In this document: one piece after another, positions 42,311 to 46,137 of the stretch
Layout of the letters: each line of letters begins with the position of its first letter
Numbering within the stretch: the first letter of the stretch is position 1
Assembly (NCBI GenBank): GCA_919902495.1
Contig: CAKKRC010000014.1
Coordinates: 1 to 60,205, forward strand
DNA length: 60,205 bases
Reading direction: 5' to 3'
From: Nitrospiria bacterium
GTDB lineage: Bacteria > Nitrospirota > UBA9217
Notes under the pieces: generated by a model
Seen by the model: the letters and a program-made list of their open reading frames with translations, nothing else
Databases searched by the model: none
What the model was told of the DNA's origin: nothing
Made by a program: the position numbers and the translations under genes

Positions 42311-42496
42311 TTACATCTCGGTAACGGTGATCGCGTTCTGCGGGCAGTTCTCCACGCAGGTCAGGCAATTGATGCACTCGGCCATGTTCACTGCTTCCGC
42401 CTTGCCGCCATTGACCGCAAATACCGCCTGGGGGCAGAGGTTCGCGCAGGTGCCGTCTCCGTCGCACTTGCCGGTATCGATTGTCACCATGATCAT
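42311..42496 (-). CDS. Small two-cluster ferredoxin with Asp in cluster I
   Basis: The 61 residues have two ferredoxin motifs. The second is complete: CINCLTCVENCP. The first reads CDGDGTCANLCP, that is C-x2-D-x2-C-x3-CP, with Asp where the second Cys should be. Asp at this place ligates a [4Fe-4S] or [3Fe-4S] cluster in some archaeal ferredoxins. GGAGGAA precedes the ATG at 42496. The gene is monocistronic. Confidence 0.9.
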   Translation of the reverse strand: MIMVTIDTGKCDGDGTCANLCPQAVFAVNGGKAEAVNMAECINCLTCVENCPQNAITVTEM

Positions 42497-42633
42497 GTAG
42501 ATGTTCCTCCTTAAAAATGGGTTGCAACTCAAATCAGGGCACATAATACCGAGAGATGGGCAGAAAAGCAACAGGAATTCGCGCCAGGGCAACAGGGACC
42601 GGACATGGGGCAAATGATAACATGTCTTATTTA

Positions 42634-43776: not shown

Positions 43777-44025
43777 CTACTTCTTCCGGACGAATACATG
43801 GTACTCGTCCGTCCCCTCGACCTTGACCAGCCCGAGGTACTCATTGCCCGTCCGCTTGCACCATGCGGGCATGTCCATCTCGATGCCGTCGTCGTCGGAT
43901 TGCACTTCCAGCACCTGCCCGGGCTGCATTTCCTTGATCTTGTTCGCGGTCTTGAAGATAGGCACGGGGCATGCCAAGCCAACACAATCCAGAACATCGT
44001 CCGGTATGATCTCTTTGAGGTCCAT
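43777..44025 (-). CDS. TusA-family sulfurtransferase
   Basis: TusA-like proteins carry persulfide sulfur from cysteine desulfurases. The 82 residues have the active-site motif LACPVPIFKT (CPxP) near 19-22 and the C-terminal strand pattern TGNEYLGLVKVEG. It is the last gene of iscR-iscS-iscU-tusA, so it likely receives sulfur from the IscS encoded beside it. Whether that IscS is active is in question. Confidence 0.93.
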   Translation of the reverse strand: MDLKEIIPDDVLDCVGLACPVPIFKTANKIKEMQPGQVLEVQSDDDGIEMDMPAWCKRTGNEYLGLVKVEGTDEYHVFVRKK

Positions 44026-44034
44026 TCGTGCGAC

Positions 44035-44463
44035 TCACTCCATCTCGTTCTCGTGACCGGTCTCGGCAGGCATCGTCACGGGAGAGGCAAGGCCTTTTTT
44101 CTTGTAGTAATCGTCCAGCGCTGATTTGAGCGCTTCCTCCGCCAGCACCGAGCAGTGCATCTTCACTTTCGGCAGACCGCCGAGCGCCTCGGCGACCGCC
44201 GCGTTGGAGATCTTGATCGCTTCGTCGATGGTCTTGCCCTTTACCAGGTCCGTGACCATGCTGCTGGTCGCGATGGCCGCCCCGCACCCGAAGGTCTTGA
44301 ACTTTGCGTCGACGATCACATTGTTCTCCACCTTGATGTAGAGCCTCATCACGTCGCCGCAGACCGGGTTGCCCACGGTGCCGACACCGTCGGCGTTCTC
44401 GATCTCGCCCACATTATGGGGCTGGGCGAAATGCTCCATCACTTTCGAACTGTACTGTTCCAT
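44035..44463 (-). CDS. iscU: Fe-S cluster scaffold protein IscU
   Basis: IscU assembles [2Fe-2S] and [4Fe-4S] clusters. The 142 residues keep all ligands: Cys in NPVCGDVMRLYI with the neighbouring Asp, Cys in FKTFGCGAAIATSS, and Cys in KVKMHCSVLAEEAL preceded by His. The C-terminal tail is longer than in E. coli. It lies 10 bases after iscS. Confidence 0.96.
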   Translation of the reverse strand: MEQYSSKVMEHFAQPHNVGEIENADGVGTVGNPVCGDVMRLYIKVENNVIVDAKFKTFGCGAAIATSSMVTDLVKGKTIDEAIKISNAAVAEALGGLPKVKMHCSVLAEEALKSALDDYYKKKGLASPVTMPAETGHENEME

Positions 44464-44473
44464 AGATCCCTCC

Positions 44474-45658
44474 TCAGGTTGTTTTCCTGTTCTTTAGCAT
44501 ATCCTCATAGAGCGGGGACATTTCCCGCAGACGCTGTACGATGGGCGGAAGTTTTTCGATCACATAGTCCACATCCTCCGCACTGGTCCCCATGCCGAGC
44601 GTCATCAGCAGGGTGCCGTTGGCCGCCGCTGCATCTGTCCCGATGCAGGAGAGCACATGCGACGACTTGAGCGACCGCGAGGTGCACGCCGATCCGCTGG
44701 ACACGTAAATGCCAGCCATGTTCAGGAACAGGAGCATGGACTCCCCTTCCACGAACAGGAACGAAACGTTCACGTTGTGCGGAAGCCGCCGGGTAGGATG
44801 GCCGTTCAAGATCAGGTCCGAGATCCTGTCCTGAAGCCCTTTCAAGAGTTTGTCTCGAAGCGGCAGCAGATAGCCGCTCCGGTTCGGCAGTTCCGCAGCC
44901 GCGATCTCGGCGGCCTTGCCCAGTCCCACGATCCCCGGAACGTCCTCGGTGCCGCCCCGCCTGCCGTCCTCCTGAACGCCGCCTTCGATCTGCGGTTTGA
45001 TCCGGACCCCTTTTCGGACGAACAGCGCGGCTGTCCCCTTGGGGCCGTAGAACTGGTGCCCCGAAAGGGACAGCGCGTCCACGCCGAGGGCCTGTACATC
45101 CACAGGGACCCATCCCACGGAGGCCACGGCATCGGTGTGGAACAGCGCCCCTTTCGCCCGGGTGATCGCTCCGATCTCCTCGATCGGCTGCAAGGTCCCG
45201 ATCTCGTTGTTCGAATGCATGATCGAGACAAGGACCGTTTCCTTGGTGATGGCCTTCGCAACGTCTTCCGGGTCTATGATCCCCTGCTTGTCCGGCGCTA
45301 TGGCAGTGACCTTGAAACCGGCTTTTTCCAGGGACTTCACCGGGTGCAGAACGGAGAAATGCTCCACCTGGGAAACGATGATGTGATCGCCCTTTTTGAT
45401 GTTGGCCTGGGCAAGCCCTTTGACGGCAAAATTATTGGACTCCGTACCGCTGGAGGTGAAGAAGATCTCCTCCGGTTTTGCCCCGATAAGCGCGGCGGTC
45501 TTTACCCGGGCGTCCTCCACGGCGTTCTTGGCTTCCCGGCCCATATCATGGAGATTGGAGGGATTGCCGAACTTCGCGGTGAAATAGGGCAGCATGGCTT
45601 CCACGACCTTGGGATGCACCGGCGTGGTCGCCGCATGGTCGAGATATACTTTTCGCAC
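44474..45658 (-). CDS. iscS: Cysteine desulfurase IscS/NifS with Gln in place of the PLP lysine
   Basis: The enzyme takes sulfur from cysteine for Fe-S clusters. It is 394 residues from the GTG at 45658, ten bases from AAGGGGG. A TTG six bases upstream is possible. Features intact: YLDHAATTPVHP, TSSGTESNN, VEHFSVL (His100), HTDAVAS (Asp176) and the sulfur-carrying Cys in SSGSACTSRSL. At the PLP Schiff-base position the family has SGHK, but here it reads SGHQFYGPKG (Gln202, codon at 45053-45055). One base change from AAG explains it. Confidence 0.93.
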   Translation of the reverse strand: MRKVYLDHAATTPVHPKVVEAMLPYFTAKFGNPSNLHDMGREAKNAVEDARVKTAALIGAKPEEIFFTSSGTESNNFAVKGLAQANIKKGDHIIVSQVEHFSVLHPVKSLEKAGFKVTAIAPDKQGIIDPEDVAKAITKETVLVSIMHSNNEIGTLQPIEEIGAITRAKGALFHTDAVASVGWVPVDVQALGVDALSLSGHQFYGPKGTAALFVRKGVRIKPQIEGGVQEDGRRGGTEDVPGIVGLGKAAEIAAAELPNRSGYLLPLRDKLLKGLQDRISDLILNGHPTRRLPHNVNVSFLFVEGESMLLFLNMAGIYVSSGSACTSRSLKSSHVLSCIGTDAAAANGTLLMTLGMGTSAEDVDYVIEKLPPIVQRLREMSPLYEDMLKNRKTT

Positions 45659-45660
45659 GA

Positions 45661-46137
45661 TCAACAGACCCCCTTTCCCGCCGCGACAAGCTTCTTGCGG
45701 TGTACCGGATGTTCGCGGTCCTTCCCGTGGTACTGGCGAAGCAGCTGTTCGAACGTGATGCTGTCCAGCGCCTCTTCGATCTTTTCTCCCACCTTGCTCC
45801 AGACCATCCGGGCAACGCAGTCCTCGGCCTGGTAACAGCCGTCCGTCGCGCCGGGCTCCAGGCAGTGGGACAGGGCGATCGGTCCTTCGAGCGCCCGGAC
45901 CACGTCGCCGATCGTCAGTTCGACCGGCTTCCGGGCCAGTTCATAGCCCCCATGGGGCCCGCGCACGCTTTCGATGATGCCCGCCTTGCCGAGCCGGTGG
46001 AGGATCTGTTCAAGATAGGAGAGCGATATCCGCTGGCGCTCGGCGATCTCCTTGATGGCGAGCGGCCCCTTGCCGTAGTTTCGAGCGATCTCGAACAGGG
46101 CGCGAACACCGTATTTTCCTTTTGTCGAAAGTTTCAT
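45661..46137 (-). CDS. iscR: Fe-S cluster-sensing Rrf2 regulator IscR
   Basis: IscR represses the isc operon when loaded with [2Fe-2S]. It is 158 residues from the ATG at 46137, giving MKLSTKGKYGVRAL. The winged HTH includes ERQRISLSYLEQILHRL and SVRGPHGGYELAR. Three cysteines (HCLEPGATDGC, then EDC) can ligate the cluster. A near-perfect type-1 binding site overlaps its promoter. It heads the operon. Confidence 0.95.
   Translation of the reverse strand: MKLSTKGKYGVRALFEIARNYGKGPLAIKEIAERQRISLSYLEQILHRLGKAGIIESVRGPHGGYELARKPVELTIGDVVRALEGPIALSHCLEPGATDGCYQAEDCVARMVWSKVGEKIEEALDSITFEQLLRQYHGKDREHPVHRKKLVAAGKGVC

Follow-up and report, generated by a model that had tools for sequence, protein, structure and literature searches.

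Cysteine desulfurases bind PLP through a lysine, and the window analysed here, a stretch of 60,205 nucleotides from a Nitrospiria bacterium (contig CAKKRC010000014.1), carries an iscS-like gene whose product lacks it. Is this an error, or does it mark a real departure from the mechanism, and what could such a protein do beside IscU? The gene lies at 44474–45658 on the minus strand, starts with GTG and encodes 394 residues (Pfam Aminotran_5, 270 bits). The minus-strand codon 45053–45055 is CAG, giving Gln202 in the stretch SLSGHQFYGPKG (the PLP motif reads SGHQFYGPKG), and the residue aligned with it in E. coli IscS is Lys206. The initial annotation had stated this replacement correctly, as it had the presence of the sulfur-carrying Cys and of the His and Asp that hold PLP. 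They are found as Cys325 (TGC, 44684–44686, minus strand), aligned with E. coli Cys328 and A. fulgidus Cys321 and thus a sulfur-carrying or cluster-ligating residue, His100 and Asp176. The iscR-iscS-iscU-tusA operon was also borne out by Pfam matches (Rrf2, Aminotran_5, NifU_N, TusA); its genes, on the minus strand, are about 2, 10 and 9 bases apart. Its first gene is an Rrf2/IscR-type regulator (45661–46137; Rrf2, 149.5 bits, below the IscR equivalog cut-off). The iscS-like gene is followed by iscU (44035–44463), whose scaffold protein keeps three Cys, Asp and His, and by a tusA-like sulfur carrier gene (43777–44025; 77.5 bits, below the NCBIfam TusA equivalog cut-off) with the CPxP cysteine. 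Among solved chains, the window IscU is closest to that of A. fulgidus in the 4eb5 complex (182 bits, the next 156). A mechanosensitive channel gene follows tusA, and downstream of it a small ferredoxin with two 4Fe-4S motifs is encoded (42314–42505, minus strand).

Sixty related genomes were searched. All 13 window-family genomes that carry the gene, the window's own counted, have Gln at position 202 (identity 78–100%; 78–94% for the relatives). In the homologue alignment that had been proposed as a check, Gln is found in each of the relatives with 94, 87, 86, 84 and 79% identity, and SGHK in none of them. The codon is CAG, with the synonymous CAA in one family genome. A residue fixed in this way excludes chance or error. 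A sequencing or assembly error at 45055, which had been offered as one explanation and would need one base only (CAG for AAG), is therefore refuted by the family-wide Gln, the two codons and the co-loss of other active-site residues, and it can be given practically no weight; the real departure stands. Hardly more credible is a decaying pseudogene, at which the lost catalytic residues might hint. It is contradicted by purifying selection, since dN/dS of the window iscS against nine relatives is 0.05–0.12 (0.084 for the closest pair; dS approaches saturation in several of the comparisons), similar to the 0.085–0.15 of canonical NifS in these genomes. The open frame, the conserved operon, the retained Cys and the confident fold also stand against it. 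The lysine-less window IscS is genuine and under purifying selection.

The lysine is not the only residue lost. The initial annotation was right about the lysine but did not remark on two further changes in the active site. In the alignment to E. coli IscS, Ala179 (GCC, 45122–45124, minus strand) replaces the PLP-contacting Gln183, and Leu351 (CTG, 44606–44608, minus strand) replaces the substrate-carboxylate Arg of IRFSLGR (Arg354 in the numbering of this alignment). SufS Arg379 binds the substrate carboxylate, and by its motif E. coli Arg354 is the equivalent residue. Asp7, Thr72, His100, Asn151, Asp176, Ser199, His201, Thr237 and Cys325 are kept. A Cys is present at the position of Cys325 in every sequence compared; in the window IscS it lies on the loop SSGSACTS. 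An AlphaFold model built with 18 homologues has a mean pLDDT of 89.9, and its least certain stretch is the Cys loop 326–329, in keeping with a mobile loop. The closest solved folds are human NFS1, A. fulgidus IscS and E. coli IscS, with TM scores of 0.90–0.94 against NFS1 and IscS (fold type I). The window IscS thus shares with the canonical group I desulfurases (E. coli IscS, NFS1, NifS) the fold and family, the Cys loop with its persulfide Cys, the His and Asp, the phosphate-site residues, the C-terminal segment and the adjacent iscU, but it differs from them in lacking the S(G/A)HK lysine, the IRFSLGR Arg and Gln183. Its match is below the NCBIfam equivalog cut-offs for both NifS and IscS. 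In the comparison set, the lysine is absent from 62 sequences, and in 56 of them the Arg is absent too. The ability to hold PLP covalently has disappeared along with the ability to hold cysteine, which makes a hidden desulfurase less likely. The 30 columns with the best separation between lysine-less and canonical sequences showed no conserved lysine that could be a substitute.

Lysine-less IscS as a kind is already known, so that the departure from the mechanism has precedent in A. fulgidus IscS and Methanosarcina acetivorans IscS1 (PMC7585200). The A. fulgidus protein has Asp in place of the lysine (PMC7585200), and its PDB sequence, seen at the C-terminus only, also has Leu for the substrate Arg (GTLLLTLG). 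PMC8617193 (citing Pagnier 2015) and PMC7585200 describe it as devoid of desulfurase activity and as the source of a possible cysteine ligand. In the A. fulgidus complex, IscS Cys321 completes the cluster site on IscU, and 4EB5 is shown with PLP (PMC9769115). Other PDB entries of this protein (IscS 2) are 4eb7, 4hvk and 4r5f, the D199K mutant. The window IscS is 47–48% identical in structural alignment to the protein of this anaerobe. Like it, it has the lysine and the Arg replaced (Q202 and L351), the latter by Leu in both, the Cys kept and a closely similar IscU partner, encoded next to it in the window. On the other hand, the residue at the lysine site is Asp in one and Gln in the other, the window operon is bacterial with an Rrf2 regulator and tusA, and the window genome has a lysine-bearing NifS too. 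In M. acetivorans, IscS1 lacks the essential lysine and adjoins iscU, and an active IscS2 is present in the same genome (PMC7585200). By this published description it resembles the window IscS as an iscU-adjacent paralogue without the lysine; it differs in being archaeal and formed inclusion bodies on expression. We also note a series of PDB chains of near-identical cysteine desulfurases with stepwise PLP-site changes (9wep, 9wer, 9wew, 9wf8, 9wfb, 9wfe and 9wfy). One chain of the series has Leu at the lysine site, and entry 9wfy holds IscU too.

The wider distribution was followed on a tree of 100 representatives, from which columns 183, 206 and 354 were left out and on which A. fulgidus IscS was not placed. 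Absence of the Arg requires one change and defines one clade of 39 rows (SH-aLRT 93; 99.7 for the same branch in a thinned 45-row tree), and the lysine requires four changes. Three members of this clade (L023, L033 and L054) have kept the lysine and lack the Arg; therefore, the loss of the Arg is the event common to all members. Loss of the Arg first and of the lysine later is the simplest order, the root and direction not being given by the tree. The members belong to Nitrospirota, to many Desulfobacterota and to single Eisenbacteria, Desantisbacteria, Chloroflexi and Schekmanbacteria bins. Most have lost the lysine as well and have Q, P, T, M, R, N, S or A at its site. Because the sample was collected with peptide patterns of the window IscS, one (GHQFYGPK) with the Gln in it, its frequencies do not reflect those in nature. 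Independent pairs relating loss of the lysine to loss of the Arg or Gln had no power, with only three usable pairs. A literature search of open-licence papers found no prior report of a bacterial lysine-less IscS clade. To our knowledge, it has not been described before how widely this clade extends among bacteria, that its members share the loss of the Arg, that tusA is associated with it or that it occurs together with dsrA and a separate NifS.

These data bear on the view that the protein is still a working desulfurase with altered chemistry, in which PLP would be held non-covalently, another base would stand in for the lysine, and cysteine or another substrate would be cleaved. The PLP-site His, Asp, Thr, Ser and His are kept in the window IscS, the fold is intact, and PLP is seen in the archaeal structure. 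However, the substrate-carboxylate Arg and Gln183 have gone along with the lysine, other subclades have P, T, S, A, M, R or N at the lysine site, some of them also lacking Asn155, and A. fulgidus IscS is inactive by the accounts cited above. An altered but active desulfurase is accordingly unlikely, and we give it little credit.

The proposed search for a second iscS or sufS returned at least one lysine-bearing NifS-type gene in each of the 13 family genomes with the lysine-less IscS. In the window genome it is L120:4230-5354 (the same gene as L001), which has the Lys, Arg, Gln and Cys and stands directly after the cysteine synthase gene (cysK). A SufS-like class V protein with an AHK motif and no obvious catalytic cysteine is encoded at L136:3984-5126, near an mnmE-like gene. 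Most family members have one short SufB-like protein each, and HscB was not found in the window family genomes. DsrA scored over the cut-off in 11 of 14 family genomes, the window's included (its match is partial, 314 of 402 positions), and the cells therefore probably handle sulfide, as far as gene content can tell. Across 61 Nitrospirota genomes, DsrA is over the cut-off in 21 of 28 with the Arg-less IscS vs 5 of 33 without it (Fisher 2.6e-6); counted by family units, the figures are 8 of 9 vs 2 of 8 (p 0.015). Part of this link is due to shared descent, and the presence of dsrA is by itself no proof of sulfide production. In anaerobic E. coli, sulfide can replace IscS but not IscU (PMC13015791). 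An mnmA-like gene, recognised by eye, adjoins nine canonical loci and no Arg-less locus. In some lineages the canonical desulfurases seem to be tied to tRNA thiolation, and IscU seems to be the partner of the Arg-less ones. Such a pattern agrees with a division of labour.

The neighbouring tusA suggests another reading. A tusA-like gene on the same strand within 1.5 kb accompanies 29 of 63 Arg-less loci vs 0 of 87 canonical ones; among IscU-linked loci the counts are 24 of 55 vs 0 of 43 (Fisher 9e-8, kinship ignored). It is conceivable, though improbable, that TusA passes sulfane sulfur to Cys325 of the lysine-less IscS and from there to IscU without PLP chemistry. The sulfur on TusA would come from sulfur metabolism or from another desulfurase, and the flow from TusA to IscS would be the reverse of that in E. 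coli. The association is confined to the Arg-less clade and recurs in several of its subclades, Cys325 and the TusA cysteine are both kept, each family genome has 3 to 8 TusA-like matches, and the cysteines of E. coli IscS and TusA lie within 4 Å in their complex (PMC11302665). However, tusA is not adjacent in the Desulfobacterota subclade or in some others, the direction of transfer between TusA and IscS is only putative, and the TusA counts ignore kinship. In its broad form, with a small chance of being right, the proposal is that a wide bacterial clade of IscS, with the loss of the Arg as the common change, gave up PLP chemistry and now works in a PLP-independent relay from TusA through IscS to IscU. 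It is the most interesting alternative, for if it were true, an enzyme from the start of sulfur trafficking would now be an acceptor in its middle. As a separate observation, a TusA domain and a sulfite-reductase-like domain are joined in one 385-residue open frame at G000:C20:17481-18530, and similar fusions occur in G001, G002, G008 and G011.

The explanation that we favour, and hold to be probable, is that the window IscS is a partner of IscU that is no desulfurase and contributes Cys325 when clusters are assembled from sulfide, a role already put forward for an archaeal protein. In its favour we count the losses of the Lys, Arg and Gln, the conservation, the selection, the operon, the second desulfurase and dsrA, together with the work of others on the inactivity of A. 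fulgidus IscS and its cysteine ligand to the IscU cluster. The lysine-less IscS would no longer take sulfur from cysteine and would stay in complex with IscU, where the mobile Cys325 would act as a ligand and might also hold sulfur briefly. IscU would build the [2Fe-2S] cluster from sulfide, which should be plentiful in these probably sulfide-forming cells. Desulfuration of cysteine for other needs, such as tRNA thiolation, would be left to the lysine-bearing NifS. For the window protein, we infer all of these functional steps from sequence and from the A. fulgidus case. Several points count against the sulfide-based reading, the limits of the dsrA link noted above among them. His100, Asp176, Thr72, Ser199 and His201 are kept, which may still allow binding of PLP or of an external aldimine, and the adjacent tusA points to continued persulfide chemistry.

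Annotation by fold alone easily calls such genes cysteine desulfurases. As a consequence, a wrong sulfur source would be assigned in reconstructions of Fe-S assembly and sulfur flow for many sulfate reducers and other anaerobes. The clade also provides many natural cases of an IscS kept for a non-catalytic use, so that the cysteine-ligand hypothesis from A. fulgidus can be tested in bacteria by comparison and genetics, and it hints at a possible connection with TusA and sulfide.

That all lysine losses go back to one origin was rejected (p-AU 1e-7 on the thinned tree when all lysine-less rows were held together), there being a separate E. coli-like branch in Nitrospirota family f10. Its IscS proteins (L169, L170, L171, L173, L175 and L177) are the remaining six of the 62 lysine-less sequences. 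They have Leu for the lysine, Asn for Asp180, Tyr for Gln183 and Ile or Gly for His104, and they keep the Arg. By these residues, the PLP site was lost here a second time, independently of the Arg-less clade. The loci are of the E. coli isc type, with DnaK/HscA-like and HscB-like genes nearby. In the sister branch, from Nitrospirota family f2 (L168, L172, L174 and L176), the lysine is kept, His104 is replaced by Ser and Gln183 by Glu.
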